Of a DNA stretch of 64,000 bases, positions 4,475-40,429 are shown piece after piece. Every line of letters begins with the position of its first letter. The stretch's first letter is position 1. Below the pieces are notes generated by a model. That model had not been told where the DNA came from and did no database searches. It saw only the letters and a list, made by a program, of their open reading frames with translations. Origin of the DNA: Straminergon stramineum (Eukaryota > Streptophyta > Bryopsida > Hypnales > Calliergonaceae); contig OY987263.1 in NCBI GenBank assembly GCA_963920665.1, positions 40,955,218 through 41,019,217 on the forward strand, in the 5' to 3' direction. The position numbers and the translations under genes are program-made.

Positions 4475-4478
4475 AATC

Positions 4479-4505
4479 AAGACCGAATTAGACATTTTTG
4501 CACTT
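4479..4505 (+). repeat. left terminal inverted repeat of the large transposon
   Basis: Twenty-seven bases, containing ACCGAATTAG and CATTTTTGCACTT. They match the reverse complement of 21731-21757 except at positions 3 (G against C) and 14 (A against G). Confidence 0.88.
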
Positions 4506-4515
4506 GGCCAAGTGC
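4500..4515. other. subterminal perfect palindrome, possible transposase-binding site
   Basis: GCACTTGGCCAAGTGC is a perfect 16-bp palindrome that begins inside the left TIR. The half-site with its flank, GCCAAGTGCAAT, recurs at 21707-21718 near the right end. A repeated subterminal motif is typical of transposase recognition sites; the role is inferred. Confidence 0.6.
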
Positions 4516-5026
4516 AATGACCGTATGGAATACTATTCACTAAAATATTGTTTTAACAAAAATTGACCCCCCCCCCCCCCCTTGTTTCAAAAACAACTCT
4601 CTCAGGTTCTTTTGTGTTTTGCTTCAATTATACATGGTATTTTTACATAGGGATGCACTTTTCAACACTTCTAAATACAACAAGTACAAATTTACACTTC
4701 ATTCATTTTGATTCATTTTGTTGTTTCTTCATTTTATTCACCACACACTATATATTTCAATTCTATGGATATCATACTCTTTTTATGTCAATATCACTTG
4801 AAAAGTAAAAAAACACTATAGTCATTGAAGAATTTATTTAGAAAATCTAAATGAAGTCGAAGAAATGTCCATATCTTCTCATATTAGATTTAAAATCCAC
4901 ACAACTCCAAAAAGGAACACTCCAATATCTACAAACATTTTGCAAATCAACTAAGAACTTTTATACTTCCACACACCGTATACTACCATACTATCGATGT
5001 ATGCACCACTATTAAATACTTGAAGA
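4506..5026. other. left subterminal non-coding region
   Basis: This lies between the left end of the transposon and the stop codon of its left gene. It holds a run of 15 C at 4567-4581; a similar C run lies at 21661-21670 on the same strand near the other end. It probably contains the 3' untranslated region and polyadenylation site of the leftward gene. Confidence 0.5.
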
Positions 5027-8000
5027 CTACACTGTGTCATCTGGTGTTTCCAATACTTGTGCGGATGACTGTGTCAAGTCTTTTGCTTCCCCTCCACCAA
5101 CTACCTCAGTTTCTTCAACTATACTTGGACCACCTCTAGGACTGAGTGAAGGTGGAGAGCCATACTCCAATGCCCTATCTACCAGAACGTTCACAATGGG
5201 TGTTGACACCCCCTCTGAAAAAGACTGTGATTGGATAGGTTCTTCCAAAATAGAAAAATCCCGATGAAAAACATAATGCCCTTCATTTCCTGTCCTAACA
5301 AAGTGTACATTCTCCCTATTATAGAAATATCCATCCTCCTTCAAAGTCAAACTTATAGAGTCCAGAGATGTGAATGCTGACAAGGCAGATATGGATTCCG
5401 TTTCTCTTGGTGTACCTTCAAGCTCTCCCACATGAACTTCAACATCTGCTGTTGTTGCCGGTAAACCTTCATTTTCTTCCACATTAATTTCAACATTTGT
5501 TGTTGTTGCCGGTAAACCTTCATTTTCTTCCACATGAACTTCAACATCTGTTGTTGCTGCCGGTAAACCTTCCATTTCTCCTCCATGAACTTCAACATCT
5601 GTTGTTGCTACCGATAAACCTTCAATTTCTCCTCTATGAACTTCAACATCTGTTGCTGCTGCATTCTCCATATTATTCTTCTGTAATGTTGGAGCATAAT
5701 CAGGGTCTTCTTCCATTTCCAACAAGTCTTCTTGGTCTCCATGAGCGTCACTTTCAGCATCAGTGTCAACAGATCCCAAACTTTGGCCACCACGAGGTAA
5801 ATCATCAGAGTTCGTCTGCTCAGAGTCACTACCACCTCCACTTGATGATGAAGCTCCAGAATCAATTGCGGTCTCTTTTCCCTTTCGCTTCTCTCTTTCA
5901 GTCCTTTCAACTATTTCTTCTACATCTGATGAATCGCTCGATGAACGCAGTACCCTCTCAAGCCTACCACGTGGTACACTAGTTTCTGCTTCAAAAGGAT
6001 CATAATTAGGCGATTGCTCTCCCATACTCAACATTGGTGAGGTTCTCTGTTCAGCTGAAGTGTTTGCACTGTTCACCATCACCATTTTATCCCCATACAT
6101 CAACTGCAATGTATTGTATACAAAATTTGTACGTGTTGTGCCGCCTTCCATGATGATAATTTCATTGCCCAGAAAACCATTCTCTAAAATCCCCGGAATA
6201 GCCATTGTAATGCCCAATGTCACCAACCCCCAATTCTTAGGTAGATACATCTGCACCATCCTCTTCAACTCCATTGGTGTCCTCTCCAGCTTGTCTTCAA
6301 CTCGTGGCATCACTTCTCCGCTTCAAGTGTCTTGAAATACCACATCTAACTCCTCTATACTGTGAGGAAGGTTCTCCATAGGCCCACTTTCATGCGGATA
6401 CTGCATAATGATGGCAATGTCCCCCACTACTTGTACTACTCGATGCAGTTGCTCACCATGACGTAGATCATGCACATATGATGAAACAGTTTGTCTTTTA
6501 AATATCCATGAATCCTTCAATGAATGACTACTCTCTGGCAAAGACATCCTCGATTGCATTGCTTCGTCAAAGTACACACCTGGTGGAAAAAGAAATATGG
6601 CGGTCCACCGTAGAATTGAAGACATCCAATGTTGAATTTGATGCATCACTTTGTTGTAATCTTCACTTGACCATTCTCTATCCAACCCTTCTGAACCACC
6701 ACGTCTGCAATCAAAAATCCATAAACACGGTTTTCCCAATTCAATGTAATCATCCTCAAAGAACCCTGCTCTACACCTCACGTGCACCGATTCTTCTCTT
6801 CCTTGGTGATGGACTACTGAAAGTGCAACTTGCTAGTCCCATCGTGCATTGGAAACATCCTCGACATCCCGATTATAGCCTGTATAACCTCTGCGACCAG
6901 CTGTGATATCGGTAAAGTGTTGCCTAACAAACGCTGGAATCAAATGATCAATACTGCTCAATGATTGAACCGTCTTCACAGTTGGAGAACACTACAAAGT
7001 CTTTGAATCAATATCTAACGTCTTCCCCATGAATGTGAATTGCCTTCCTCCATCAGATCCATACGTGCTTGCATCTATTGCAAAGAAATCATCCATTGAC
7101 AATGGATTCTCATCCTTCGCCTTGACCATCAAAAATCGAATTTGATTCCTCACTGCATCCTTTCGCTGCACACGATCCACTGCATAAGCTACAGTACCTT
7201 TAGGGGGATCCGGAGAGGTTGCATTATTGAAATAGTACTGTTGAGAAGGTCGTCTCCCATCAACCATTGACTTTGCTGCCATTTGCTTCACCACACGTAC
7301 ATAGGTCTCTTGAGAGACTCTACTCAAAGGTCTCCACCAGGTCTTCTCCATCCTCTTCCTCTTAGGATTCCCATCCACTGTAACATCCAAATTGTGCTCT
7401 CTTGCCATTTTCTTCCACTTCTCCTCTGACTTCTTGCTAAAAAACAACTTCCCTTCCTCATAGTCTTTGTACACTTGCAATATTGCTTGATATGCCTCCT
7501 CATCTTCATTCCAAGCGTGCCTTGTGTAGTCAATCATTTTTTTGGACAACTCCCCCAATGACATACGTTGTGGTAAGTCTTGACTCCAGTGCAATGCACT
7601 CGCTGCCATTGTCAATGCCTTCGCTCGATATGTATCATCAACTCGTGCAGCAACACTAGGACTTCCACAAGATTTTCAAATGTCACGCAGCTTGATTAGA
7701 TTTTCATAGTACGTGGTGAAAAACGTCCGGTCAAACTCCCTTGCATTAATTCTAACCGACGCTTCTATGTAGAACTGTGGGTTGTTGTAGACCACAAACT
7801 TTGCTTTCCTTCTTGCAAATTGCTTCAAGTACTCCTCCTCACTGATTTTGCCCTCTTGATAATCATATTGGGCTCGTTTACAAGCACCTACAATATGTTG
7901 CCCATCCACTGGCTCCCATACGATATTATTCTCCAACCACTGAGTCTGCACCATACTCCTTGGGGTAGATGGATCTGCACGGCAATGTGTCAAAAATGCA

Positions 8001-9616
8001 ACCTCGAATTCACGTGCAGCACCTTCATGACTAAAAGAAACCTCCACTTTCTCTGGTTGTCCTTCATCATTGACATTCTCATAATGATATGCAATTGGAC
8101 GAAGTGTAATTGCACTAATTCCTTCAGCTTCAAATCCCTTCAAACATTGGTACATCTCAGTCACTCGCCAGTCCATTAGCGTTCTGTGGTTTGTCTCTGC
8201 ATTTAATACATCACGGATACTATCAATGTTTGCATTGAAAAATGTACCCTACCCCCAAATATATCCCGCCTTGTACTCAGTCTCTGTAGGAAAAACCACT
8301 GGTGGTTTTGTAACACTTCGTAACAATACACTAGTACGTGCTTGCTCAGGCTCTTCTTCTGCAGAATCATCATCATCCACTGCATGAACCCCATCATTGG
8401 CTGCAGGAGGAGGTCCTCCTATCATTACTCTTTGATGATGCCTTTGTACTGCACTCCGAGTGCGAAGGCTTTGCTCTTCTTGAGACCCCATTTCCACTAT
8501 GTGAAGCCTTTGATGTTCCTCTTCAATATCTTGCAATGCAGAATGGTCTCGGGCTACAACTCGACCTCGTCCTCTATTAGCACCTTGTCCTCTATTAGCA
8601 CCTTGTCCTCTACCGGTACTAGACCTTCCAACATTTGTATTAGACATCATAACTCCTGCCCTGCTCATTTGGATTCCTGAGCCAATTCTTCGAACTCTTG
8701 ATCCTGATCCAGTTTCTGTGATTGTTCTTGGAATTGTAGTGTCACTTTCAATTACAATTTCTACAACACCCTGTTGTTCATTGTCTTCATTTGCTTCAAA
8801 ACCACTCTGTTGTGGTTCAATTGATTCCTCTCCAAGCTCATCCTACACTGATGAAGGAATAATTGGTGCATTGCCTTGTAATAATGCCTCTTCATGCCTT
8901 CCACGTTCATTCTCTCTCAAAGGCTGAACTTCAACACTTGTTGTCGCAGAAACAAGACGTTGTCGATGTGTTCTTTGCCTTTCAGAAACATCCCTTTCAT
9001 CTGAATGAGTTTCACCTTCTTCTTCTTCGACAGCAACACACTTCTTGTTCCTTTGAGACACTAGAATCCAATTTTCTTTCACTGGAGCTCCATATAGCCG
9101 ATATAAATCATCTGTATCCTCAGGTTCTGTAGGAGCAGGCTGTTGTTGGGCTGTAGTAGGGTCATTTCTTTGAAGCTCCTCATAGCTTCGAATCTGCACA
9201 TACCGTTTATGTGCTTCAAACAATTGTTGAGGGGTTGAGTCCTTGAATTTCTTAACAGATTCTTCTCTTCGAATCTTCAAGTCATCGGACATAGTTTTCT
9301 AGAATTTCACCAACGTCTTCAAACCATGCATAGGAGACAAAACAAGAACAAGCTCTGCTGGAATTGGTGCCATCATCAATCGCTTCCTCAATTTGTACTT
9401 TTCAAAGACCATTTCACTGTTGGTAACAGCCACAATGAGTCCTTCATCAACAGTGCCTGCGACGCTCTCAATGACTCCATATGAGGTTCCCAGAGCACTC
9501 CAATATCGCCCTTCTTCAATTGGGAAGTCAGTGAGCCATAATGAAGGCTTCTCCGCACCATTCGCTACTATCCACCATCCATGCTCCAACCACTTCGAAT
9601 GGACCTTCAGTGCCAT
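5027..9616 (-). pseudogene. transposon partner protein, one long frame with seven in-frame stops
   Basis: Read from ATG at 9616-9614, a single frame stays in phase for 1,529 codons to TAG at 5029-5027. It is broken only by in-frame TAG at 9301, 8845, 8251, 6994 and 6835 and TGA at 7678 and 6325 (first base of each). Sequence between the stops continues as plausible protein with no frameshift. Visible features: an N-terminal globular segment (GWWIVANGAEKPSLWLTDF, ~residues 13-31); a low-complexity acidic and Gln-rich stretch (~150-330) with RGQGANRGQGANRGRGR (~335-351); VDGQHIVGACKRAQYD at ~570-585, resembling the ParB/sulfiredoxin-fold motif; a globular part with hydrophobic strands (~670-1180); and an acidic, Ser-rich tail with five 17-residue repeats of the DVEVH...EGLP type. 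A splice-acceptor-like TTTCATGTGTAG precedes the start, so a leader exon is likely. The function is unknown; linkage to the transposase-like gene suggests a role in transposition or element silencing. The stops look like CAG-to-TAG and CGA-to-TGA changes. Confidence 0.82.
5411..5660 (-). repeat. five 51-bp coding tandem repeats
   Basis: Five imperfect 17-residue units in the tail of the leftward transposon protein share the pattern A-T-T-D-V-E-V-H, then two acidic or Gly residues, then E-G-L-P. The unit is 51 bp, so the array keeps frame. Acidic, repetitive and hydrophilic sequence of this sort is usually disordered. Confidence 0.85.
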
Positions 9617-12600
9617 GATGTTCTACACATGAAAATAAAAGTGGAATTCAATAATTGAAAGAATATTCAAATTTGGTAAACAGTACAACAATTACTAATA
9701 TACTACTGAAGATCGTTCGTAGTTAGTGGTTTAACCAAAACAACTTCTACCATATAGAGCCCAATATGCAATTTTTTTGTTTTCCTAGTCTTCAAGACTT
9801 AATAGTAAAGTTTGTAAGAAAGGCATGAACGTCACTTTGGAACTTGTACACCTAACTTCTATGAATAAAAGCATCCAAAATCTTCAATATTAACGAACAT
9901 GAATAATATGTGGACATCTATAGTGAAAATACAATAACGTTAAATGTAAATGAGGTCATCATCTTCAACAACAACAACTTAACAGAAAGTTTTGTAATTC
10001 AATAAACATAGAGGCACCCTTTCTTTTTCAATATCAACAAATTCCGTCCCCAAACTTTCATCACAAAATACTATGGATTGCATCAAAGTGCATGAAAACC
10101 ACTTCGACAAAGCTATGAACTTCTGAAACTCCTCCCACCTAGTTTTCTACTATGCTATATAATATCATATGGTTTTTTATATTTTCTAGATAGAAATTGC
10201 CAAGTAGATCCCTAAATAATTTAAAAGCCAATTTCTAATGTCACAATTTTAAAAAATTGTTTGCGACAGGTTTGCTTTGAAGTTAAACAAAATGCAGTAC
10301 AATGTCCTCTTCCAAAAAAACTACTACAAAAAATGATTCGGTTGAAGTACCCAATATGTAAGTTTTGGTTACTAAAGAGGGAATCAATTGCCACTCAATA
10401 TAAGTAATCGTGTTGGTATTTCTATATGATTTTTTGTTTGAGCTTCTGCACTTTTACTATACAAAGAAAATGAAAGCACATTCAACGAAAGCATATTTAG
10501 CAGTACTTGCTTTCTTAGCAATTAATTGAACATCGAAATCAAATCCTATAAGTCTCAAGTTTTTCATACGAAATAAGTACGTACAAGGTATACTAGTATT
10601 TGCAATGTTCAAACTATGAATGGCATCTTATTGAAATGACAAGGAAAAGACACGTACGTCATAGAGGCCAATAACTATGGTATGTTTGTACATGACAAGT
10701 ATTAAGTCATGGAATGCATTATCTGTGGAACTTTCCTTTGAAACTCTCGTGGTGTGCACTTCTAAACAAGGACCTCATCTTATAAATACAACATTTAGTT
10801 ATGGATGTTGAGCTATAATAAATTCAAATCGACTAAGTCTTATATAGTACAAAAGTAATATGGAATGTTTTTGATCATTTTATTTTGTTCAATGTTGAAA
10901 AAGATAACTATAATAAAGAAAAGAATTGATAAAGAAATTTCAAGACAACAAATATAAAATACAATAAAATAGATTGGAATAAATTAAAGTAATACAAAGA
11001 TTTTTTATTCAAAAAATTATCTTCAAATAATCTTAGAAGAATTTCAAACAGAAGTATAGTAGGAGAATCTGAAATTAAACTATAATACAAGAGAACTAAG
11101 TAGTTTCAAAATTAAAGAATTTTAAATCATTATGCATTCAAAAAATGTATATAATACAAGGACGAAAACTAAAATTATAATTAACTTATAACAAAATAAG
11201 ATTAGAATTTCAGAAAATATAATGCAATATCATGATGAACTAAAGTAGAAAACAAGAAATTCAAATAAAACTACAACACATTAATTTGAAATTAAAACAT
11301 AAGGCCAAAGCTTCAAATGTACTTCTTATGTAATTAATTTAAATTGAAAAAGAAGACCAAAAATTTGAATGTCATCAATGTGTAATTAATTGAATTTGAT
11401 GTACACATAATGAAGTTCACATCACACTCACCGAAAACCAAAATTCTAATTGAAATTTATAGAATACAAAAGCAAAATGAAAATTCAATAAAAAATATAA
11501 GATATTCTTCAAGAATGGTCCCCAAGTCCTCACTATGTAACACTTTGTAGACAAGCAATACACGTTCTACAAATTTTGACTTTCATGTATACGAACTACT
11601 CAAATAGCACGTTCCATAACAACCCTAAATCAATATAGACAACACACCTAAAAAGGTATTAGTCGTTTCATAATATGTTTCAGTGCACACTAGTATTGTC
11701 AAAAGTTTTAGGATATGATATCTTCTCTTCACTATCACAACTATTGAAGCTTTGTAATATAATTCTTCCTACTCCTATAAGTGCTCAAGTAATGAACTTC
11801 AGTCATATTGTGATCTACAAGTTAATACTAATTGACTACATAATTACCTATTTGCAAATTACAAATACACCAAGATGAATCCACTTGACTCATATGTAGG
11901 AATACATTAGTCGTATTGAACCTACTTCATGTAAGAAATAAATGAAGAGATTTCATACTATATTAATGGAGTTGAAAACTATCCCAATGGGTTTTTTCTG
12001 CATATAATTAATATTAGAACACCAATTTCATTGATTTACATTTTATTTTTGGACTTCATTATTTTCATATGGATGTAGTGTGTTAAAATTTTGCCATGTT
12101 CTAGTACTACATGTTTACAGTGGTGCTCAGGATTCCATACTTTTTTGACCTCAACATTGTTCATTTTAAAGACTACTTTTAACATAGGTGAGACCTGGTT
12201 ACTAGAATAATTTTATTAGATTTTCTTCTCCATTGTACAATCATAATTGGAGTGTATTATAAGTTTTGGATGTCTGTAATGATTTCAATGTTTCTTTCAG
12301 TTTTTCCTTGAGTGAATGAACTTCACAAGAGCTGCTTCTATTATGAGAGTATTGGGTTTGTTTGCCATGGTCTTGGTCCTTGTATTTAAGGCTGCAAATC
12401 AGGAAGTACTATCTTAAAATACTAGGAAACGTTAAAACTTCGCACACTTTTCGAGGTGGTCATTTACTGAAGCTTAGGATTAGGGCTTTATAAAATTTTA
12501 AAGAACAATTTGTAGGTCTGAAGTGAAAAGACAAGTTCTACAGTACAAGAACTATGTTGTGCTTTATTTTCTTTGGGATTACAGAGACATTAATTCACGA
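9617..12600. other. non-coding inner segment, left of centre
   Basis: AT-rich, with no protein-like frame longer than about 70 codons. A splice acceptor facing the leftward gene ends near 9627 on the minus strand. The segment may be largely the leader intron and promoter of that gene; this is inferred. Confidence 0.45.
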
Positions 12601-13950
12601 CTTCCAGCAGTGAACCACTTTAGGACTATGTAATTTTGGAGGACCTTGAACGTGCGGGAGAAAACGATCTAGCAGAGACAACGCTTAGAGACGATTTTCA
12701 CTCGAGGTCAATTCTAACTCTTTTTTTGGTCCATGTGAGCCGCCGTGAGCCCATGATGATCCATTGAATCAATTCGTCAAGTTCTTGTGTTTGTTTCAAC
12801 AGGGTTTTCCTAGAATGAGAGAGGACGTAGAAAGAACATGAGGTCATCGACCAATTCCCGTAGAAGAGCAAATTCAGTCGTTGGAAGTTGGTAGCAGCTG
12901 AAACGAAGTCCAGAACAAAAAATCACAGATTGCAGACATTCATCGCATCACTAGCTCCGTGGATACAAACCAGATCTTCCAGTAAGGCGTTGGTCTACGT
13001 ATTTCTTGTTTACATTACTTGTCAATTTCTTCTCTTCTAGTTTCTCATACAGGTCGAGATTGATGTACTGGACTGGACGCAGATTCTCTCGCTAGTCTAG
13101 AACAGTACTTCTCACGCGAACTGTGAAGGCGGAAAACATACAAAACAGTAAAGGTAAATGCATCTCTGCCGAACTACGTCTCGTCATCACTAGTGCTCAG
13201 CCAAATTCTATGTTGTCATTAGTTTCTTGCAGGTTTGAGACAAGTGCTTCAACATTTACAAAGTTGAAGCTGGTTACTACTAGGTTCAAATGAAGTTTCT
13301 ACTAGGTAGTGACGTTCGATCTTCTGATTTGCTAGCCTAATGTCCTGTTGAAGTAACATTAAATAGTATGAATCTGTTTCCTAACAGTACAAGAAGGGCA
13401 AATCTGACCTTCCACGATGTCGCTAATTCCGCAAACTGAGATTCAAGAGAGTGGCAGTAGTGCGCAGAGAATTCCAATTTTCAACAGCAGAGAAAGAAAC
13501 CAGGCTTGACAAAGTTCAATTCATTCCTATCGTTAGTCGTTCCACCAGTTCCCCGAACACAAACCAACTTCAGCAAATCCAGGAGAACTTACGGCAACTG
13601 TGAAATTAAAGCGGCAACTGTGAAATTGAAGTAGCAATTGCGAAATTGAAGCAGGAACAACTAGTTGCAGACGATCGATTTGAATTCCACCTAACTTCGT
13701 CGGACTTCGCAAGGACACCCTACCGCGCAGCAATAACTTCAAATTCGTTGGACTCTACGAGGACACCCTGGCGCATTAGTAATATCATAGTGTAAGACAA
13801 CAGAATATATCGAAGGCAGAGGACAGATTGCGATGACCAAACAGAGGACCGCGTGGAGCGCAAAGCAAATTCATCGGACCGGATAAAGTGGAAAAGGAAG
13901 CGCAGAGATTCTCCTCCACGACTCAGCAATAATTGATTTCCAATTGCGAG
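12600..13950 (+). other. GC-richer block with splice-like sites, candidate leader of the rightward gene
   Basis: Base composition rises sharply from about 12600 to 14900. On the plus strand there is a good donor AAG|GTAAAT at 13153/13154 with an acceptor TTTCTTGCAG ending at 13232 (79-nt intron). Another acceptor, CTCTTCTAG or CATACAG, lies near 13050, and a donor GAG|GTAAGC at 13950/13951. No long coding frame accompanies these sites, so the block reads as spliced untranslated leader for the gene that starts at 18236. The rightward gene shows an acceptor-like GAAGACAG just before its ATG. Confidence 0.4.
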
Positions 13951-13968
13951 GTAAGCACACTTACCTAC
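13948..13968. promoter_or_regulatory. paired donor sites on opposite strands
   Basis: The 14-base inverted repeat GGTAAG-CACA... around 13950-13965 presents a consensus 5' splice site on each strand (GAG|GTAAGC rightward and TAG|GTAAGT leftward). If both are used, the two divergent transcripts have overlapping first exons. Confidence 0.35.
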
Positions 13969-14073
13969 TTTGCCGCACTTTCGCGCTTTCTCCAGAAATT
14001 GAGTAGCACCGTCTTCCACGTCGCACGAGAAAATAGCATCACCGAGGGCCACCTGTACAATCAATTCCAGCAA
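13965..14073 (-). other. candidate exon, minus strand, with consensus donor
   Basis: On the minus strand an ATG at 14073 opens a 36-codon frame (MLELIVQVALGDAIFSC...) that meets a consensus donor GTAG|GTAAGT at 13965/13964. It could be the first exon or leader of the leftward transposon gene, or a small cargo gene. The protein is not recognised. Continuous frames run on to 13720, but the donor makes splicing more likely. Confidence 0.35.
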
Positions 14074-14098
14074 TGAACAGTGTGCTCTAGAGGAATTA

Positions 14099-14136
14099 GA
14101 ATAGTGACCCTCCGCGCGCGCGGAGGGTCACTGTTC
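14099..14136. repeat. palindrome 1 with alternating CG core
   Basis: A perfect 30-bp palindrome at 14103-14132 extends to 38 bp (14099-14136) with one mismatched pair. The core is (CG)n, with arms GTGACCCTCC and GGAGGGTCAC. It is the first of three copies within 260 bp. Confidence 0.9.
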
Positions 14137-14198
14137 ACTTGTTTTTCATCATTCCGCAATGTTCATTATGATTGCGGTCAAGGTTTGAGAAGTCCCGA

Positions 14199-14238
14199 TG
14201 AACAGTGACCCTCCGCGCGCGCGGAGGGTCACTGTTCA
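14199..14238. repeat. palindrome 2, perfect 40 bp
   Basis: A perfect 40-bp palindrome with arms TGAACAGTGACCCTCCG and its complement about a CGCGCG core. It could fold as a cruciform or, in RNA, a 20-bp stem. Confidence 0.93.
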
Positions 14239-14286
14239 CTTGTGGGGGTTTGTTTCCAAATCTTCCTCACAACTGCAGCGGTGAAG

Positions 14287-14360
14287 AGTAGGACCAGCGC
14301 CGACGAACAGTGACCCTTCGCGCGCGCAGAGGGTCACTGTTCATTGGTGCTGGTCCTACT
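14287..14360. repeat. palindrome 3 inside a longer inverted repeat
   Basis: The same palindrome recurs at 14305-14342 with changes at the core edge (CCTTCG against CAGAGG). It sits inside a further inverted repeat, AGTAGGACCAGC at 14287-14298 and GCTGGTCCTACT at 14349-14360, giving an imperfect 74-bp hairpin. Confidence 0.88.
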
Positions 14361-14999
14361 TTTTTCTACAATTTCACCTCTTTGGTAGGAGATGACGACA
14401 TATACAAATTTTTCAAGACTTAGAGTCACACAAGTAAGAAGATGAAGTTTGATTAGGGTTACCTTCACCTCGCCAAGCGGTGACAGAAGCTGCTGATCGT
14501 CCCAAGCCGTATGACCCTAAACAATCGAGGCGCTTCCTGTGATTCAATTACAAATGATGAGCTAATCGCGCATTCTTTAGCACGTACGGGAATTTAGATG
14601 CAGGTTGGAGCAAGCACAATTTAGTGTTTCGGAATTGAAGAAGCAAGTTTGTGCACGCACCTCCTGCTTGCAGTTGCTAGATGACGTTGCTCTGGCGCTG
14701 GGCAGCTTCACCTCCATGTTAGTTTGTACTTCCTATCGAAAATAGTGATGTAGCAGATCAGCTGATAAGATTCTTGCAAAGAGGAGAAACTCTTGCGGCT
14801 AGACAAGGAAGCACATGCGCGCGTCGAAGACTTAGGTTTCAGATAATCAACGGAGATGATTTAAGTAGATATGAGGTGCTTCTATTATGCCATTGAACTT
14901 TCCATTCCTTTTCCGTTCGAAGGGGTCGGAAGAATGCCTTTCCTCTGTGCATCACAGACAGTCATCCAAATCCATCCATTATCTGTTATGTGCCAATTC
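14361..14999. other. right part of the GC-richer central block
   Basis: Moderately GC-rich DNA without a convincing frame. By position it may contain the start region of the leftward transcript. No clear TATA element or other site was identified. Confidence 0.35.
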
Positions 15000-15578
15000 T
15001 TAACCCCATCACGCATACTATCATCTCAGAAATTGACAGATTGAGAAAAATCATTCTAAAGTGCTATTGGAAAGCATATTTTTGAATTGACATACAATTG
15101 CAAGTAGTAAATTTTGATTTGAACACTCCATCCTCATGGGTAGATTCACCAATGCTACGACCAATCTTTTTTCATAAATTTTGAACGTTCAATTTTAGAG
15201 TTCCTTCTAAATTCGAGTAGAAGCAAAGAAGAATTATCATGTTTACAGAAATTAATTTGGAATGAATTTAAAAGGAGGTTCTCTTCACATGGTGTTCATT
15301 TTTAATTTATGTATTTTTACAGTCTATGACCTCATTTTGACGAATGTAGTTTTGAACTTAAGTCAACGCAATTTGACTACTTGACATCTTTGCACAATAG
15401 GAATTGTAGAAGAATATGTATTGAGGTTACATCAAATCCAACTGTTACATATAAGAAGAATTTGATAATATATGTCCACAAAATAGATTCTTTCATCCAA
15501 ATAGTTAAGAAGATGAAACTCTAGTTTTAATCTGTTCATAGTCCTAAATATGGACTACATGGAGCACTTAGAGTTTAA
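15000..15578. mobile_element. TTAA-flanked non-autonomous element nested in the large transposon
   Basis: TTAA lies at 15000-15003 and 15575-15578. The interior (ATTGAC...GAGAAAAAT, GAAAGCATATTTTTGAATTG, CACCAATGCTACGACCAAT) matches the element at 62305-62866 along its whole length in the same orientation. It therefore inserted after the large transposon was in place, or was carried with it. Confidence 0.72.
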
Positions 15579-15639
15579 GAGTACTGGAATATAAGTTGTG
15601 GTACTCCATAAGTGTTTAGCATGCCCTCCCTTGTTTATT

Positions 15640-15985
15640 TGTTTATTTGTTTATTTGGTTTGAACCCTAGTCTCCACCATTACAATGGGGAGTCTTTGCA
15701 TTCTATGAACCTACTTCCCTTCAATGTTTAATGCCACCTTTTTATTCCATTTATATCCTTCATATTCCTTGTTTAATGATGAGAGCATGTGCTGTAATTA
15801 TTTTTCCAAGGCCATTTTTGACTCCTTTCTCATGTTTTTTAACCTTTTGTTTGAAAAAATTGTCACATGGGAGACAATATATTGAGAATTTCAGAAATTG
15901 GATGGATTAGAAGTCGAAAAAATGAAATAGGTTTGGACTTTGGGCTTGGACTTTGGGCTTGGACTTTGGACTTTGGCCTTTGGCC
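15640..15985 (+). repeat. short tandem repeats
   Basis: Two low-complexity tracts: TTTATTTG repeated near 15637-15660, and a 13-bp GGACTTTGGGCTT unit repeated near 15934-15985. A 112-codon frame at 15867-16205 is generated by this repeat and is not judged to be a gene. Confidence 0.6.
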
Positions 15986-15993
15986 TTTGGAGG

Positions 15994-16127
15994 CTTCACA
16001 CTATGGCCGGCCGAAGGCTCCAATTCCTAGTTTTTTTGACCTATTTATTGCTCATTTCCTTGGACTCTCACCAAAGTTTGGCCACTTAATCCCACAACCT
16101 CTCGACTTGGACGGCCATAGTGTGAAG
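15994..16127. mobile_element. small hairpin element
   Basis: CTTCACACTATGGCCG at 15994-16009 is perfectly repeated in inverted orientation at 16112-16127. This gives a ~134-bp remnant of a small inverted-repeat element inside the large transposon. No target duplication was identified. Confidence 0.6.
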
Positions 16128-16129
16128 AG

Positions 16130-18220
16130 GCCCTTAATTTCATATGTAAGGCTTGCATTTAGTGTTGATCTTCGAAGCTTAGTTAATTATTTCAAAAAAG
16201 CATGAATACAAAAGATTGTGAGCACCTCCCACCGAAGCCAAATTTGTGGGTGTTTAGTTAGAAACATATTTTCTAAATATGATATTTTATGAAGGAAATC
16301 CTATAGAGCTTCCAAACAACCTCATGTTAAAGTCACTCCCACATATTGAAGTTAAAGAATGATAATATTTTGTTGAAAAGGAAATTCGGCAGACATTCTA
16401 AAATTAACCTTGTAGAGTTCTTAGTAAAATATATGTGTAATAAATGGTTTATGACATCATACAGATAGAATTTTTAATTCTAATTGTACCACTCATGTTT
16501 GAATATTGAATAAAGTATTGTAGTACAAACTATTTTATGTTGGTATTAATGGAATTAGCAAACTGGACAAGACATTTTGAACACTTACTAGTTAACCTTA
16601 TTTTATGTAGTGTTATAATCTGCGGATGCATGCACAAAGAATTGTTCTTTGGAGGACATATGGTATCCTAATTTTCTTAAACTTGTGTATTACTTCACTT
16701 AGAACACAATAGTTATAAAAATTGTGAAATTTCATTTAGTACTTGAACTTCGAATTACATTTATGGAATAAGTAGGTTTGATTGTATGCTATTTTGTTTT
16801 TTGTTTAAAGTTTAGTGCATATTTGAAGAACTTATTAAGAAAAATTTCATATAATGATGTTATAATGTGCAGAATAGAATTACTAGGAACATAGGGTTTT
16901 CAAATTTTTTGGATCTCCATAGATTGAGTTCAAAATTTTGGTACTTCAAAGGTAGTTTAATGTAGAAGCACTAAGCTCTTCTATTATAGTGTATGAGTAC
17001 ATTTAAAAAGTTTAGAACTTATGATCACAATGAAAGTGTATTTGCTTGTAGAGTAGAGGACCATTACACTTGAAAGACCTAGAAGGCCTAGAAGCAAAGA
17101 TTGTTATTGTTATCCTCAACTTTTCACATATTTTATGATATCGGAAGTTCTACATTGATAAATAATTTTGTAGCTTCAAGAGTTAACAGTTGACTATTTT
17201 ATTTACAGCTTGGAAGTGTGGTCACGCTATATCAACTACATGTAATTCTAGTACATTAGTATGAAAACTTAGAGAATAATGTAACAAAATTGGAGTATAT
17301 AGAGTACAAGGTCTTCCTCCTTCTCTAGGGGCAAACAATAATTGTTGAAAACAACGTTTATGAAGTGCATTTCTTGAAATGCATATCATTGTAAGTTCGA
17401 TTCTTTTTCATATGAAATGTTCAACTTGAAGTATCTCATATTGAAGAATTTAGTTTACATCTTAGAATGGTAATTAAGGAAATTTATGAGTTATAAAAAG
17501 TAAATCTCTAGTTTGTAGTCCTCATATGAAGTTTAAGATTTCTATTCAATGAATATATAGTTTACAATTAAATTTTATTTTATATTGTGAAACTTTAAAT
17601 ATCATTTTCCTCATGTTGTTGAACATTACAATGTGCAAGTTTGAAAAATTATTATGTCAATTATGTATTAAAATTGAAGTATAGAAACTTAGACCAATGT
17701 TCCTTAAGAAAACCAAAGAGATGTTTATTTTCAAGGAAATAAATAGGAACTCAAAAATTTCATGAAATGTATTTATCTTTATACTAAAGTGAAGAACATT
17801 TAATTTTTGGTGAATTTAGACTTTGAGTCGGACACATAGATTGGGAATGAATGAAATTTTTGTCTGCATTTGGGTTATTCAATGTACATTTGTCCAAGTT
17901 AAAATACATTGAAATGATTATTTAGGAAGTCTTAAGAGTAACTTGCTAGATTTGATTCAGTTTGTTGTAACCAATTAAAACGACATAGTATTTGAAGAGA
18001 GGACATAGGAAAAAAATAATATGGAGGTGTCTTCTCCTAATGTATATGAGGATGTTTACTTTGTGTCAATGTTGTTTGGTTCTTTAGAAGATCCTTACAA
18101 GGTGTGTGTGACATATGTTAACTTTTCTGTATGTACATGGAGACAGATCGAAGACACATGAGTGAAGAGAGGGCAGTTCAACATTGCACCACTGTGTGAC
18201 AAACGGTTCTGCACGATTGA
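16130..18220. other. non-coding inner segment, right of centre
   Basis: AT-rich with no credible frame. It ends in GAAGACAG, an acceptor-like sequence just before the ATG of the rightward gene, so part of it may be a leader intron. Confidence 0.4.
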
Positions 18221-18235
18221 TTGAAGACAGTTGCA

Positions 18236-21200
18236 ATGGAAGCATTTGGTAGTCCAGTAGCCTTTAATGCCGTTGGGAGTTCGGTGGTTGCAACTGAACG
18301 AAGAATCGTAGGTGAACGATTGACGCGTGTGGTACGAGGAAGACTTTTCCAAGAAGAAGATCGCGTCCCTTCAAATGTAGTCTCAAACGCTTCTAACGGG
18401 ATGGTGCAACTTCTTGGAAAGGATGGGAATGTTGTAGGAGTTGGTGTGGTGGATACAAGCTTTGCATGTCAGGATGAACTTCATCAACTCAAGTTACGTC
18501 CATTCGAAATTGCAGTTCGTGTTACACATGCCTTGCATGAAGGAGAATGGGTTGGTGAGGTAGTGGGGAAGTTGCTCATTGATTGTGTGGATAAGGTCAT
18601 ACGATGGTGTCAATCTTCAATCCGTTGGGCATGTCCTTCGGAAATAAGAACAACAAGAAGTACTAGAATTGAAGAACAACATTTTTCCTTTCCTCCTATT
18701 GCAACACCAGAATTTGATTTTAATGACATGGAGGAGAGCCCTACTGCTTCAAATGCAACCCCAACAAGTCATGGTGAAAGAAGTACATCTACAAGAAGTT
18801 CTCCTATGACACAGGAATCTGAAGCTAGTGTTCATGATGCACCAGGAGTACAAGGAATGCCTATACATGCACCGAAGAGGAGGTATTCAATAACAAATCG
18901 GAGGGCAAGGGTGAGAAGTCCAAGAGAACGAGGGGAATCAGCTAGTGAGAAAGTTACTCTTGAAAGTGTTTTATGCGCGAAGCAGAGAGGAGCATGTAAA
19001 CGCAATTGTTTACGTGATGTCGATGCCAAAAACATTTTGGATCAACGATACATGGCATGGGGTCAGAAATACGAAGCGAAGGCTACATGGATAATGCAAA
19101 TGCTCAATGCTTTCTACACTCGAATAGAGGGGCAAACAAGAGACAAGTATGTGACAAAATTAGATGGTAGAGTGGTTTGCAATGCTTGCTTTGCCGCGGC
19201 GTTGGGTTATTCACAAAGGCGTTTTAAGCAGTTGAAGACATCACATAACATATATGGTAGAGTGGCAGGTATTCACGGAAACACATGTCAAGGGAGGGAA
19301 AGTGCAAAAATGTCAGCTGCTAGGGAAAGTCTTGATGTTTTTGTAAATGAAGCAGGATGTCAGCAACCCCATCGATCGGTAAGAAGGAAGAAGGACAATG
19401 CGGTATTACCATTGATTTTGTTGCCAATGAATACAAGCAAGCTGGATGTGTTTCAGTATGTGAACGAAGAAGTGAAGAAACTGGTGGATGGGACTGAATT
19501 GTCCATGAGCTCATTTCGTCATCTTTGGCGGAAGGAGTTCCCGCATGTGTAGATTCCACCATTTTCAAGATTCTCAAAGTGTTACCATTGTTGGGAGTAT
19601 AAATGTGGAATGGAATCCACAACAAATGCAGCCGCAAAGGTGAAGATCAAAGAATTATACATTGTGCACATTCGAATTCAAATGGAGGAGAGGCGAGATT
19701 ACTGGTTGTTCAAGAGATCTGCAATGATTACTCCGGACATTTTCATGTGTTTGATTGTGGATGGTATGGATCAAAATACAACTATGATACTGAAGATGAG
19801 GCAATCCGTGAAAAACATCGAATCTCGATTCGTGAAGACTCATCTTTGTGGTGTCTTGGTCCATGGGATTGGATTATATGCTGATGTGTGGATAGATGCT
19901 CACCACAAGCATGATAGCAATCAAGTTATAACGTCAGTTATGAACGTAATATGTGACGTGAAGCATAGGAAAGGATCGTTGCCACTGACGTTGAGGATTC
20001 AAGTTGACAACACAACAAGGGAGAACAAGAACATCTACATGTTTGGCTTGTGTGCCGCACTAGTTGGCCTTGGTTTTTTCAAGGAGGTGCATCTATGTTT
20101 TTTAATCGTTGGACACACCCACGAGGACATTGATAAGAGATTCAGTGTAATTTCAAACGTCCTCAAAAGGAGAGACATAGATACATTAGAGGAGATGTTA
20201 CAATTGGTGGAGAAAGGAACATCATATACCGAGGCTTTTGTAACTGCTCATAAGCTTGAACATGTTCGAGACTGGAAGGCATTTATCACACCTCATTTGC
20301 TACGAGGTGGGGATCAGTTGACGGGCATAACATTTCCACACCATATGAGGTTTTACGTGGAAAATGGTTTGGTCCGCGTGCAACACAAACATTTCAGCTC
20401 AGATGAGTGGGGCCCATCAACGGGACATTTGTGTTTGAACTCACTACCAAGTGTAACAGAGAAACCAAATCTTGCAGAAGTGTTTGCAGCTGATCAGAGA
20501 GAATTGAAAGCATTGGACGAGTTCATTGCTTACAAACAAAAGTTAATATTGCGAGGTGCTGACAAGATGAAGAACATGGAAGTTGTGGACAAAACAAACG
20601 ACTTCAAGGATTATCTAGAAGATTTTCCACAACAGAATAGAGAAGGGGCACGTGATTTACCATTTTGGCCTAGCGATATCTTGAACGAGAGTGAAGAAGA
20701 TAATGTTATTCCAAATGTGGTGGAAGAAGGTATAAATTCAAGTGCATCTACTGACGCTGATGGAAACACAACAAGGAATGCAGCTGTGGACTTGATTATG
20801 GCAACAATGCCTAATCCAGAGAGGAGGGGGTATTTTGGACCTCGTCGAGATAGACCCCCACAAGAAGTATCTCGAAGAGTGACTGGAGGAAGGAATAGAG
20901 TCGGAAGTCATCATGCAAGAACAGAAGCAATACAAGATGCAAATGAAGATCCTTTTCCTCCTTTCAATCCAGAGAATGACATTATCATAGGCCAGTTCGT
21001 GGCACTTACTGTGGAGTTGAGGGAAGTAAGAGGAGGAGTACCTTTTTACATCGGAAAGGTATTGGAATTTGGTCAAGGGAGGTGGGCCTCAAAGATGAAA
21101 GTCTTGTGGTATTGGCCTTCAAAGAGATCTGGAGCAGAAGAAGAAGAAGTAGGTAGTAATAGAGTGAGGTACACGAATTGCATGGAATCTACATGGGAAC

Positions 21201-21439
21201 CGTCTGGGGAGAGGTTTGCTTGGATTGAGAAGGAAGCTACTATATATTCATGGATGGATGCCCCTCATCGAGGTAGAATAGGTCATGCAATGAGCTCCAA
21301 CATCACTATGCACAGTATACAAACAGAGGAGACAATGGTCATTCCGACTGAGGCTAAACCGCATCTTGTGGAGTACATGGCGATGCAAATGGAGGACCTT
21401 GATGACAAACGTCTACAAAATGATTTGAACATGTACTAG
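18236..21439 (+). pseudogene. transposase-like protein of the large transposon, one in-frame TAG
   Basis: One frame runs from ATG at 18236 to TAG at 21437-21439, about 1,067 codons, broken only by an in-frame TAG at 19550-19552. Protein-like sequence continues in phase after it. The N-terminal ~150 residues are a small globular region, followed by a Ser/Thr-rich linker. A Cys-containing region follows (CAKQRGACKRNCL ... VVCNACFAAALGYSQRR ... HGN, ~245-350). Just after the stop comes FSKCYHCWEYK, a possible zinc-binding pair. A domain with RNase-H-like acidic spacing follows: IVDGMDQNTT, RIQVDNTTRENKN and LIVGHTHEDIDKRFS (~507-645). That ordered set is typical of a widespread family of uncharacterised mobile-element proteins in plants, oomycetes and animals that I believe is catalogued as DUF7869; the catalytic reading (Asp, Asp, Asp/Glu) is inferred. 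The C-terminus (~900-1,060) carries a hydrophobic, Trp-rich module (FYIGKVLEF, MKVLWYWPSK, ESTWEPSG) resembling a small chromatin-reader or SH3-like fold. Confidence 0.85.
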
Positions 21440-21730
21440 AAAAGTATTATGTTATGTATTTTATTATTCACCTTCTAGTAGTAGGCATTTAGATATAATT
21501 TAATGTGAAGTGCAAAACAATATGCATTATGAGTAGCAAGGATTGGAGGAGTGAAAAGTGTACAAGGTTTTTATGAAGTAAAATTAAATTTTGGAGCAAT
21601 ATGATGATTTGTCTTTGAACAACTTGTCCATGAAATAGTAAATAAACTTTTGGAAAAATGCCCCCCCCCCTAATATTTGAAATTGTCTATTTTATATGGC
21701 GTACGAGCCAAGTGCAATATCGCACCTTCT
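21440..21730. other. right subterminal region of the large transposon
   Basis: It holds the 3' untranslated part of the rightward gene, a run of ten C (21661-21670), and the subterminal motif GCCAAGTGCAAT at 21707-21718 shared with the left end. CGCACCTTCTAAGTGC just inside the TIR is a degenerate version of the left palindrome. Confidence 0.55.
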
Positions 21731-21757
21731 AAGTGCAAAAATGCCTAATTCGGTGTT
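21731..21757 (-). repeat. right terminal inverted repeat of the large transposon
   Basis: The reverse complement of the left TIR with two mismatches. The outermost base is at 21757 and is followed by AATC (21758-21761). Confidence 0.88.
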
Positions 21758-21761
21758 AATC

Positions 21762-29099: not shown

Positions 29100-31295
29100 G
29101 GGATGCGGTTATTCCAAAGTGCCTGAAGGTTGTGTTTATTATGCTACTATATAGTGTCCCATGACCAACATCTCTTGAATTTGAAATTGATGGAACCAAA
29201 AGGATGCAAAGGACTTGATTTTGGAGTATGAAACATAGGTGTAGGGAGTGGACTCAATGTTTCATTTGGTGACCTCATTTGCAGAGAAGCCTAGCGGAGT
29301 GATGAGATAATGAAACTATGGAGATGCACTTGGTTTCCTTGTCATTGTAATTGTTGGATGTCCTCCTAAGCACTTAGTGTCCCAATTGTGCTCATTGTCC
29401 AATGAACCTCATAAGTGTAGAACATATCATGGCTTGAGTTATGAATTTTGTTCACATTAGAAAACCTTGTTGTTATAGTTGTTATGGTCTATCTACGCTT
29501 ATAGTTTTGGTGTGACTTATGAGTTTGTTGTGGTATATTTTGATGAATTGAGTTATTCTTGACCGTGTCTTGAGGAGGATAGGGTCATAGGTATTGGTAT
29601 GCTCAATTGGGCTTGTTTGAATTTTATTTTAGGTTGATTTGTAAATCGATTTGGTGTATCATTTGGGGTTTGGAGGATGGTTAGGGGATTTTAAGTGGAA
29701 GTGGACTATTGGATATCTAGGAAGTTAAATATTCACTTGAGTTGAAACTTTTGAAATAAAGATGAATATGTTTAAAGCAATAGACCTAGAAGTCCCATTG
29801 CAAAGACATTGGTGTTTGAGGTCTAATGAGTATGCACTTGTCTTGGTGTCAATTGACTATTACAGCATAACTAGAGGCAAATAACATCTTTGAATTGAAT
29901 TGGCAAAAGGATGCACTCCAAGGACATGTTTGAAGTTTGTGGAGAGTATGTCAAACTTTCCTTGCTTGTATTGAGGTTTTTGAGTATGTAGGAAAGGTGA
30001 TGATTGGAATGGTTATCTTGATTTAATAGGGTTTATATCTTCAAAACTTACTTCATTTGATGTCTAACTTGCAATAATGCATATGACCCTTTTGGTAATT
30101 TTATTAAATTTAAGTCAAAAAATGAGATAGTTTAAGGGTCCAATGAATTTTTGAAGGCATTTAGGATATAGTTCATTGTTCATTCTATTTCTGTTTTGTT
30201 TGATATTTACAACAGTTCCAACTTAGGCAAAGTTTTATACAATTTTACTTATACACATGCTCTCTCCTTATTATCAGGATCTTCATTGCTATCAATTACA
30301 ACTTGGTGAAAGCAATAGTTGAGAGTATGATTTGAACAATAATCTCTATTTTCAAATGGTGCGTTCTCTTTAAACCCAATTTGTATATAAGATTGTGGAA
30401 ACCACTATTGTTAAATGATTTCTTAATGAAATAATGTTCCTTTTGTACAAATATTTTAATTCTTAATTGGACAATTTTAGAGTAACAAGTAGTATCATTG
30501 CTCTTGTAGTTGAGACTCCTAAGAAGAATTGGCTTGTTTTGAGACCATTCAAACAAAAACACTTTCTTGTTCATATAGGCATGTCTTACATCTCAAAATT
30601 AGGTGCCCTTGTTGATGTTGTTCACTTATGAAAGATTGTCCATTAAGATTACTCCCAAATAATCTACAACCTACGAACAATTGAGTAACACATTCTTAGA
30701 CATTGAATGTTTTGCAATTGATTTCTATTGCCATTATTCATGACATTGTTCCAATCACAACTTTGCTTCATCTTTTGGTTGTTGGTCTAATTTTTTTATA
30801 CCAAAGTGTTCACAAATGAAGAGGTCAATCTTCTCAAGCAACCCATCATGTGTGCTATTTATTAAACCATAGTTTAAATTATGTTTATAAACACCTTTCA
30901 TTTTGCTTCGATGATGATTTGTGTTGAATGTCTTAGAAAAGAAATAGATAGTGGGAGTCCATTGCTTGTACTACATGAGTATTGTGTGGTACCATTTTTA
31001 GCCAAGGATGTGATGAATAACATGCTTGCAGGAATGCAATCAAGATAATGATAATTCAATGGCAAATTATTTAGATGGTGATGCAATGCTTAGGTGATGG
31101 CCTAAACTTCTTGAAATTTGTCTTCTCAAAGTAGTGTTGGGGACTATGGCGTGTTTGGACCTTGATACATGCAAGCATTGTTGATTACTCTTCATATTGT
31201 ACATCTCATCTTTGGTTTTACTTTTGAATAATGGTGTTGTATTTTTCTATCTACACTTGTCCCTTTGTATTTTGAAAGATCTTATCATGATATAG
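29100..31295. other. non-coding DNA, probably intron or upstream region of the receptor gene
   Basis: AT-rich, no convincing frame. It ends in CATGATATAG at 31295, a splice acceptor for the TIR exon. Any first exon with the start codon should lie here or further upstream, but could not be singled out. Confidence 0.45.
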
Positions 31296-34200
31296 GTGTT
31301 CCAATGAAAGTTCAAGCATTGATCCTGTCTTGGAGCCCAAACACAAGATCTTTTTAAGCCATAGTGGAGCTCAAAAGGAGTTTGTGGAACACCTTTGCAA
31401 GGCCTTGGAAGACCGGTGGCACTATCCTTTTTTTGATCGTCGCCCTGAAAGCTTACCAAAGGGGGAAAGATTTCCAGAGTTGATCATTCAAGCTGCAAAG
31501 CAATGTGACATGTTGATTGTAGTGGTCTCCAATGAGTATTTTATGTCGAAGTGGCCCATGATCGAATTAAATGCTTTTGTAAAAGCTCATCAATTGAACC
31601 ATAAGGCAAAATGTCCAAAGGGTGGACCTAAGATTTTGCCTCTCTTCTATGGTCTTTCCGTAAGTGAATTGGAGGATGAGGCTTTGCAGAAGAAATGGTT
31701 TGTGAATTTTGAAGAATTGGCCAGGGATGATCCCAAGGAGAGAATTGTAGTGAGTGAATGGAAGTATGCATTGGATGTTTTGAGGTCCTTCAATGGTTTG
31801 GAGTACAACAAGCAAATGAGGGAGATTGTGGCTTATGAAGATGAGATTGTGAACCATGTTTGCAAGTCCATTTTTCCAGATTTGAAGTGGGATGATTCAC
31901 ATGTTCAAGGCAAATCTAATATTTGTAAGGTAATGTCCTTGAGTACCTCTAATTCTATTCTACTATCTTCCTTGTTGTTGGTTTTGCAAATAAGATTGGA
32001 GGCATAGATTATTTTGAAATCTAATTGCTTTCTTGACAAGATTATAGTTTTATATTGAGTGAATTTGACCAACTACGTGAAGTTCTCTATTTTGCTATGT
32101 TAGAGTTACTGGAATTTAAACCTTTTCTAGTATGTTGCATTGGTGGTATCTATAGGGTATTGTTGTGAAGATTGGAAGCATCAAAGTGTCAAAGAAATAC
32201 CACATCAAAGTGGTAGGTATCCATGGAGTGGGTGGTATTGGCAAGACTACAACTTGCAAGACATTGTCAAATGAATTGTTGAGGGAATATGAAGGGCGGG
32301 TGTGCCATCTTGAATTCCAAAGTGTTCCTTCAAAAGACCCCATTGAGGTCCTTCGAAAAGCATTGGTAGACTTGACAAGGAAAAGCAAGGAAGTCATTCA
32401 AAACTTGAATGGAGGAGAGGTGTGGTTTTCTAAATGGAGTCAAATTATAGTAGAAATTTTGATGTAGAATTATGGTCTTGATAGTTTGATGATTGTATTG
32501 TAACAAATAGGTGGACACTTTTGTTTACTTTGATATCTCCTTATTTGAGAAGTTTATGTCAAGGTTTTGCACTATTGAAGGTGATCTTTATGCATTGACA
32601 TGTTCAAAATAGTGTATTAAGATATAACATACATGTTGAACATTTAACTAATGGTATTGATATTGAATTCATTTTGAGTTCAATTGAGATAGCTTACATT
32701 TTTCTTTCTTAAATGTGAGCAGTGCAAATATGCTTTGTATATGAGTCTCTCGAAGCAAAAAGTCTTTTTGGCTATCGACAATGTCTCAGACAACCATGAA
32801 TCAATGAAGTGTGCAAAGATGCTTTTGGAAGCTCCTTATCATAAAGAGAGTTTGGTGGTTATGACTGCTCGCTCTAAAAGTATTCTTGAGTGCTTGGGGA
32901 TAGATGGAGATGCATGTGTTGAGATGCCAGAGCTTGAAGAAGTGGATGCAATGAAATTGTTCTTGCACCATGCTGCACATGGGAAGGAATTTATTGGAGA
33001 TGAAGATAAGGGTCACATATTGAAGTGCATCCAAAGGTGTTATTTTTCCAAGGGAGATGGACTCGGTCACCATTATCATCCTTTGGCTTTGGAAGTTTTG
33101 GGTTTGCAACTAGGTTACCATGGAGAGAATCCTTTGGAATGGGTGAAGAATTTACCAAGGATTAGAACCTTTAGTTATTTATCAAGGACAAATCCTGTCT
33201 TTGACATTTTGAGGAGCAATTTCGATTTGCTACCATCAAGTGAACAAAATCTATTTATGGATGTGGGATTTTTTGTCCAACTTTATGCAGAGTTTTTTGA
33301 AACCTCAAGTATCCAATGGTTGTGCAATGTACACAAGGAAGACGAAGATGAAATTATGCATCGGGTACTCTATTTGCATTTATCTTTTTCAAATTTTGTA
33401 TACTATGCTTTCCATTTCTAGTCATTTTTATTGTTTCACCTCTTATTTGTAGTTGTCATTAGTAAAGAATGATGACCATCTTCATCATTTTTGAATGAAC
33501 AAATCCTCTTGGAATTTATTCTTACTCAAGTTTAAGAATTTGAAATAGGGAAGAAGAGATTCAAAGATTAGAAGTTCATAATGAGTTGTTCAACTTTGAA
33601 AGTTGCTTATGAGTCCAAATTATAGCTGCATTACAAAGTCAAATGTACATGTAGGTTGAAAGTCCTTTGAAGTTATGGAACTCTTTCCAAGTACATCTTT
33701 TGTAAGAGAAGGTAAATTGAATGAGATAGAGTGTGAAAACTATAAATTGATTCATTTGGTTAGAGTTTTGATTTCAATCTTTTGTGATGGATTTAAAGGA
33801 TGTTCTAGTCATGTAAGCAAAGTATTTCCTAGTCTATTGAACATATCATTATGCACTTAGTTTTCTTATGTAGTGTTGGGTGAATAGTATATCTTACAGA
33901 ATTATTTATGTTGGTGTTGGGTTGGTAGTTGGAGAATTTGAAACGGAAAGGCTTACTACAAGATGTGGATTTGAGAAGCGGAGAAATTAGCATGCACGAT
34001 TTATATTTTGAGTTCGTTGAATTGGAAGTTAAAGGATCTTTCAACGAGATAAGAGACTTAAGTGAGCGAAAGTGGGTGTATGTGGACAATGGTGATTTCA
34101 CAGAGCTTGAAAGGACACCGGAGGGTAGATGTTGGCCAAAATTGACACGCCTTGCTATTGAACAATCCTATTCAGCTGCAGAGAAGCAATGTCAAGTTAT

Positions 34201-35368
34201 TGGTGGAATTGCAAGTTTGGAGGGAATCCAATGGGATCATTTTTCCAATGTTGAGGTATTGCATTTGGAAGGGGTGCATTGGGAATGGGGAACTTTCAAT
34301 TTAGAGCGCTTAACAAGCTTAAGGATTTTGTATTTGTCTGATGTTGTAGAGCTTGGTAGCCTTGAGGGCTTGGTAAAATTGAAGAACCTCACCCAATTTA
34401 CATGGTTATCCAGTATAGGTGGTATGGGTACTCATTTTGTGGGGCAACTCCCTTGGTCCCTCAAAGCATTGTTCATTTCAGTAGGGGGTGTGGTATTGGG
34501 GTCAAACCTCCTTACCCAATGCCGCAATTTGTCCAAACTAGAGCTCTTTTGGGTAGAAGCAAGTACATTAGATCTGAGCAATTGTGGATCCCTAGAAAGT
34601 GTGTTCCTTTATGGAATTTTGAAGTTACAAACCTTGTGCTTCTCGGTCAATTGTTTATCCAACCTACAATCTCTTGAAATTAGGGATTGTGAGGATTTGG
34701 TTGATATTCAGGGGATGGATCACCTTATTGGCTTGAAGGAATTACATATTGAGAATTGTCCACAGTTGGAGGTGCCTACTAGTCTGCTTGCCTTCACCAA
34801 ATTGCAAGATTTTGAATTAAGATCTCTAGGAGGTGCAGGGGTTCAAAGTCTAGTGGTGGGTGCACAAGATTCCATTCCATGCCAGCTTCGAGAGCTTTCT
34901 TGTTCATGTGGCCAATCTACGAAGGGACCGAATCTCAACGGATTCAACCAATTGGAAGTTTTGGACTTGGCTGATAGCCATGAATTGACATCCTTGGAAG
35001 GAATGGGGGATGTGACTGCATTGCGACGCCTCAAACTTTCGGGATGTAGTCATCTGTTGCGGTTGCCCGATTTGAGTAAGTCAAGGAACTTCGAAGACCT
35101 CGACCTCACCGGATGTTATGCACTCGAGCTTCATGGCAAAGATATTCATATGCTTTCAGAGTTGCCTTTGTTGCAGCCGGTGCCCTTTTCAGGAGAGATG
35201 GGGAGATGGGATATCAGGTTGGACCTTGTTCGACGGAAGGCACTAATTCATTCATGCAATGAGAAACACGGGGTTCCACCTTTTGGGTTGCAATGGAAGG
35301 AGCACGAATGGGACGAGAGAGATCTGGATGCACCTCCACTTAAAATTGCAAAGCGTGACCCTACATGA
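31296..35368 (+). CDS. TIR-NBS-LRR (TNL) intracellular immune receptor, first exon not found
   Basis: Exons by domain continuity and GT-AG junctions: 31296-31929, 32156-32419, 32723-33364 and 33929-35368, about 992 residues. The last three start in phase 0; the first needs two bases from an upstream exon because it has no in-frame ATG before the TIR domain. Exon 1 is a TIR domain (HKIFLSHSGAQKEF; the Glu of WPMIEL, in the place of the NADase glutamate). Exon 2 carries the P-loop GIHGVGGIGKTTT. Exon 3 has Walker B KVFLAIDNVSD, RNBS-B VVMTARSKS, a degenerate GLPL (HHYHPLALEVLG) and LFMDVGFF. Exon 4 opens with the linker, then ISMHDLYFEF (MHD motif), then leucine-rich repeats to about 35150. TNLs sense pathogen effectors and cleave NAD in the cytoplasm or nucleus. 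Moss-like sequence style; all core motifs are intact, so it may be functional if a start exon exists. Confidence 0.88.
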
Positions 35369-40349: not shown

Positions 40350-40429
40350 CGCGCAGAAGATTGGAAATGGTCTCTTCGGGATGCAACCCTAAACTTCGAA
40401 AGAAGACCCTAAAGCTCTCCGACACCTTG

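Follow-up and report, generated by a model that had tools for sequence, protein, structure and literature searches.

The 64,000-nucleotide stretch of the moss Straminergon stramineum analysed here (contig OY987263.1, positions 40,955,218 to 41,019,217; hereafter the window; 36% G+C) carries a discrete element of 17,279 bp at 4479..21757. The element contains two long, outward-facing genes: gene 1 (5027..9616, minus strand), which encodes a member of a large protein family with a ParB-fold domain, and gene 2 (18233..21439, plus strand), which encodes a 1,068-residue DUF7869 protein that is likely to be the transposase. We interpret the element as a giant two-gene DNA transposon with terminal inverted repeats (TIRs) that most probably belongs to the Sola superfamily (Sola1) and moves by cut-and-paste, cutting its target with a 4-bp stagger; we assign this reading a probability of about 0.8.

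Ends and genomic copies of the element

The TIRs occupy 4479..4505 (plus strand) and 21731..21757 (minus strand) and are identical at 25 of 27 positions, with mismatches at positions 3 and 14; about 0.002 inverted pairs matching this well would be expected by chance per 64 kb. Immediately outside them lie two copies of AATC (4475..4478 and 21758..21761), forming a 4-bp target site duplication (TSD). An earlier note, made from the sequence alone, had reported both features and both were confirmed, while its account of how the repeats begin had to be corrected: the left TIR of the window copy is AAGACCGAATTAG, and that of the other five copies compared is AACACCGAATTAG in four and AACACTGAATTAG in one. 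The subterminal motif that it described held up in part. Exact copies of GCACTTGGC occur three times in the window, every one near the tips, but with up to one mismatch allowed the motif is not enriched in the window (8 occurrences versus 7.5 in shuffled sequences). The hexamer GCACTT/AAGTGC has 53 copies in the window, 19 of them in the element, and two of these lie near each tip: those on the left form the perfect 16-bp subterminal palindrome GCACTTGGCCAAGTGC (4500..4515), and AAGTGC appears again at 21710 and 21731.

We searched the 326-Mb, 59-contig assembly containing the window with the first 322 bp of the element (40 of 75 candidates scored) and with its last 318 bp (40 of 65 scored), and all scored candidates matched. 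Among the left-end matches, 22 include the first base and the other 18 begin at base 4-8; among the right-end matches, 32 extend to the last base and eight fall short by 1-33 bases. In some pairwise alignments the match runs on for as many as 18 bases beyond a tip, with no common flanks farther out. Similarity between copies ends, give or take a few bases, at 4479 and 21757, where the earlier note had placed the ends. The matched ends form at least 25 pairs on the same strand, with spacings of 8.7 to 50.6 kb. Exact 4-bp duplications flank 15 of 25 end pairs: six of six in a first batch (AATC, TTGG, CAAA, AATA, ATAT and GAAG) and nine of 19 in a second. They are present in 11 of the 12 copies of at least 16.7 kb, and the 15 comprise 12 different sequences with an A+T content of 78%.

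Seven other copies, complete or partial, were retrieved for comparison with the window. Four close copies share 92-98% identity with it across long aligned parts, two shorter copies have common ends at 79-85% identity and little else in common, and for one copy a right end was not found within 20 kb. Thirteen of the end pairs are short (8.7-12.1 kb); in the two whose interiors were compared, the tips are kept and the genes persist as remnants only. These short pairs may be non-autonomous derivatives that moved in trans.

Gene 2 encodes a candidate DDD transposase

Gene 2 ends 318 bp from the nearer tip. Its DUF7869 domain (PF25273; residues 531-723, 19823..20401, plus strand; E 2e-49) scores 168-170 bits against a curated cut-off of 26. 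Three motifs on the plus strand provide candidate catalytic aspartates: DGMDQ (19760..19774; first Asp, D510), the VDN motif that precedes ENKN (20003..20017; second Asp, D592) and GHTHEDID (20111..20134; third Asp, D632). D510 and D632 are Asp in 14/14 rows counted in the alignment, as is D513, and D592 is Asp in 15 of the 16 rows shown, with Asn in P0018. E631, next to D632, is replaced by Asp in the nested relative described below, which makes D632 the better third residue and gives a DDD set. The first twelve relatives of gene 2 include eleven with 49-66% identity and one with 74%. From its location, conservation, residue pattern and presence in two element families, the DUF7869 protein is likely to be a DDD transposase which cuts at the tips.

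A single internal TAG interrupts the frame at 19550; the residue there is Gln in 11 of 12 relatives and His in P0010. Across four copies, nine of ten internal stop sites in gene 2 can be explained by a single C-to-T or G-to-A change, the exception being TAA versus TTG, and substitutions are rich in transitions (42:9, 53:6 and 73:13). We considered introns and a reassigned stop codon as sources of the in-frame stops and rejected both, since relatives have open single frames. The relatives of genes 1 and 2 used here (P0001-P0024) come from public metagenome or genome data; most lie on contigs only a few kb long, and several carry frames near full length.

Gene 1 contains a predicted ParB-fold domain

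Gene 1 spans 1,529 codons in one frame with seven internal stops (TAG or TGA), starts near 9616, upstream of the first long open reading frame (ORF), and ends 548 bp from the nearer tip. The two long outward-facing genes near the tips are as first described, but both carry internal stops and gene 1 starts farther upstream. Close to its 3' end are 51-bp (17-codon) tandem repeats (5414..5662, minus strand). The frames of its relatives P0013-P0016 are open.

No Pfam model matches gene 1 over the cut-off. A structure model of a gene-1 relative shows that the family has a ParB/sulfiredoxin fold, in a domain which corresponds approximately to 7693..8266 (minus strand) and includes the motif VDGQHIV, with DGQH at 7895-7906. 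Identity to bacterial ParB/Noc CTPases and sulfiredoxin is 8-18%, and in contrast to those proteins the domain here lies within a transposon protein of more than 1,000 residues. Gene 1 was found in five of five divergent copies whose left arm was retrieved, in one of them part-deleted, and four of the five give ratios of non-synonymous to synonymous substitution rates (dN/dS) of 0.28-0.35: the gene is under purifying selection.

The two genes travel together

Searches of the assembly with one relative of each gene gave 47 matches for gene 2 (from 44 scored out of 712 candidates), which fall into at least 38 loci, and 62 for gene 1 (from 41 scored out of 123), which fall into at least 34. Among the matches listed, there are 30 outward-facing gene pairs with the partners 8.6 to 43.7 kb apart, and gene 2 adjoins gene 1 at 30 of 34 gene-1 loci. 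In one pair, on C8, the matched parts of both genes contain zero stops; therefore open copies exist. The window copy, with one internal stop in gene 2 and seven in gene 1, is dead, while other copies retain open frames. The genomic copies bear out the earlier proposal that this is a full-length TIR transposon: its ends are real, it makes a 4-bp duplication and its two genes form a unit. The tips are discrete, 4-bp duplications occur at many independent sites, and the gene pair is kept together.

One copy, at C4:26303885, is itself interrupted in gene 1 by a 21,537-bp insert with AACC on either side, and the window and three sister copies show the empty site with a single uninterrupted AACC. 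The insert has perfect 13-bp TIRs starting AACATCATATTCA. Near one tip is a DUF7869 gene (143.8 bits), probably containing an intron, whose product has 22-27% identity to P0001 and P0005; the other arm has long ORFs, one with an NGQH motif. The insert represents another family of DUF7869 elements, which resembles the first in layout and shares its duplication length.

Placement among known transposons

Inverted repeats at the exact tips and a constant 4-bp duplication at independent sites identify a TIR cut-and-paste transposon. The earlier note could not place its class and found no match among the usual plant superfamilies, a view that we revise. Passages on Sola describe a DDD transposase, 4-bp duplications, TIRs and some elements above 15 kb, and Sola1 appears in a listing for the moss Physcomitrella (PMC10741241 and PMC9033089). 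The present element has the 4-bp TSD, TIRs, a size above 15 kb, a moss host and three conserved Asp (D510, D592 and D632), while modelling recovered no RNase H fold. It differs in that most Sola elements are 2-9 kb long and that the relevant passages of these sources mention no ParB partner. Among the papers listed for ParB and transposons in the one library searched, a single one looked relevant (PMC12477816), on the brown alga Ectocarpus. As described in part of that paper, the 21.5-kb Sola1-1_Ec32 carries a 1,104-aa gene that combines ParB-like with DNA methyltransferase domains and is read in the opposite direction to the transposase. Both elements are giant, and each pairs its transposase (here a candidate) with a large ParB-containing gene that lies on the other strand; because gene 1 has the ParB fold, the same arrangement as in Sola1-1_Ec32 is the best reading. 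The two are unlike in host and in the methyltransferase domain, which was not detected in gene 1. Judged by these traits, membership of Sola is probable.

Other known systems fit less closely. Sola2 elements of Dictyostelium fasciculatum and Polysphondylium resemble this one in their AT-rich 4-bp TSDs, short TIRs and extra gene, but that gene, in the part of the report that treats it, is Fanzor1 and not a ParB-fold gene (PMC3627910). Dada elements are likewise large (4.7-11 kb) with a long, DDE-kind transposase; however, the account of them in PMC3706591 gives TSDs of 6-7 bp, small-RNA-gene targets and a DDE set with a DxxH motif. Dada was rejected, as the TSD here is 4 bp.

Several observations weigh against the interpretation as a two-gene Sola element. 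An exact TSD is missing from ten of the 25 end pairs. Four of these belong to one block on C7, two differ by one mismatch, and the remaining four have flanks that do not match or degraded tips. The C7 block (C7:21049758-21359141) holds four copies within 0.31 Mb whose left flanks are nearly identical, so they reflect duplication of a block that contained the element and not four separate insertions. Among the matches listed, the partner is missing at four of 34 gene-1 loci and eight of 38 gene-2 loci, so the association anticipated by the earlier note is common but incomplete; seven of the eight unpaired gene-2 loci span less than 2.2 kb of a gene about 3.2 kb long, and the eighth (C6:5968177-5971338) covers all of it. 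For gene 2, Pfam returns only DUF7869, and the likeness to Sola comes from traits, not transposase sequence. Its AlphaFold model is poor (mean predicted local distance difference test score, pLDDT, 37), and fold searches with it gave no significant match and no clear RNase H hit, which is why we infer the transposase role indirectly. For gene 1, the best Foldseek E-value to ParB is 0.017, the confident model covers only about 150 residues of the relative, and methyltransferase models in Pfam and NCBIfam were unmatched up to E 10 in the gene-1 relatives scanned.

Mechanism and alternative explanations

In a Sola-type cut-and-paste reaction, the DUF7869 protein would pair and cut the tips and join them to the target with a 4-bp stagger. 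The ParB-fold protein would bind element DNA, possibly at the subterminal repeats or within the central part, and might assist synapsis, target choice or escape from silencing. A more specific and rather speculative proposal, which we regard as doubtful, is that gene 1 combines a ParB-type nucleotide-switched DNA clamp with a decayed DNA methyltransferase, and that it loads at the subterminal palindromes, spreads over the 17-kb element and draws its tips together or shields the element from silencing. Under the same proposal, the methyltransferase would be like that of the Ectocarpus Sola1, with its catalytic motif now DCRR, and would be retained by selection as a DNA-binding module. The C-terminal region of the gene-1 relative, which is relevant to the question of an N4/N6 DNA methyltransferase, is mostly below pLDDT 50. 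If true, a partition-like clamp would serve a eukaryotic mobile element.

Gene 1 could instead be passenger cargo with no part in transposition. Its role is a prediction, and the two shorter copies that keep the tips and only gene remnants make it seem dispensable in cis. We nonetheless find this unlikely, given that gene 1 stands beside gene 2 at most of its listed loci, that its dN/dS reflects purifying selection, and that a ParB gene also accompanies a Sola1 element in the Ectocarpus account (PMC12477816).

It is improbable, though worth weighing, that the element represents a TIR superfamily not yet named, in which a separate DUF7869 lineage shares 4-bp duplications with Sola and acquired its ParB-fold gene independently. 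Ginger and some other superfamilies likewise make 4-bp duplications, the likeness to Sola is one of traits, and the word DUF7869 was absent from the 5.39 million papers of the library searched. Against this, three Sola1 traits coincide: the 4-bp TSD, residues of the DDD type, and a partner gene containing ParB that lies on the other strand, the last as described for Ectocarpus Sola1-1. A moss also appears among the listed hosts of Sola1 (PMC10741241 and PMC9033089).

The large size, the two very large genes and the duplicated C7 block might instead suggest a segmental duplication or an integrated virus whose inverted repeats arose by chance. This is extremely improbable in view of the exact tips, the 15 exact duplications of 12 different sequences, the nested insertion with its empty site in four sister copies, and a search of viral contigs that found no relative.

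The element links DUF7869, a family whose name still marks its function as unknown, to defined tips, a TSD length and a partner gene that is conserved, and so leads to the prediction that genes of this family encode the transposases of giant elements. A further suggestion is that ParB-fold partners of Sola-type elements extend beyond algae. With that partner under purifying selection and open-frame copies at hand, its role in moving a 17-kb element is testable.

Central region and surroundings

Within the central region between the divergent genes (9617..18232), no ORF that lies entirely inside the region reaches 150 codons. Three GC-rich palindromic repeats with GCGCGCG cores, spaced by about 100 bp, are found at 14094-14363, a stretch that varies between copies. 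The segment 14886-15630 is absent from two sister copies and has 66-71% similar pieces in other fetched regions; it is perhaps another small repeat.

Outside the element, the window contains a resistance-like gene at 31291-35368, in which a Toll/interleukin-1 receptor (TIR)-domain exon is followed by a leucine-rich-repeat exon, and at 39231-40388 a gene encoding a MYND finger together with an MSS51 C-terminal domain.
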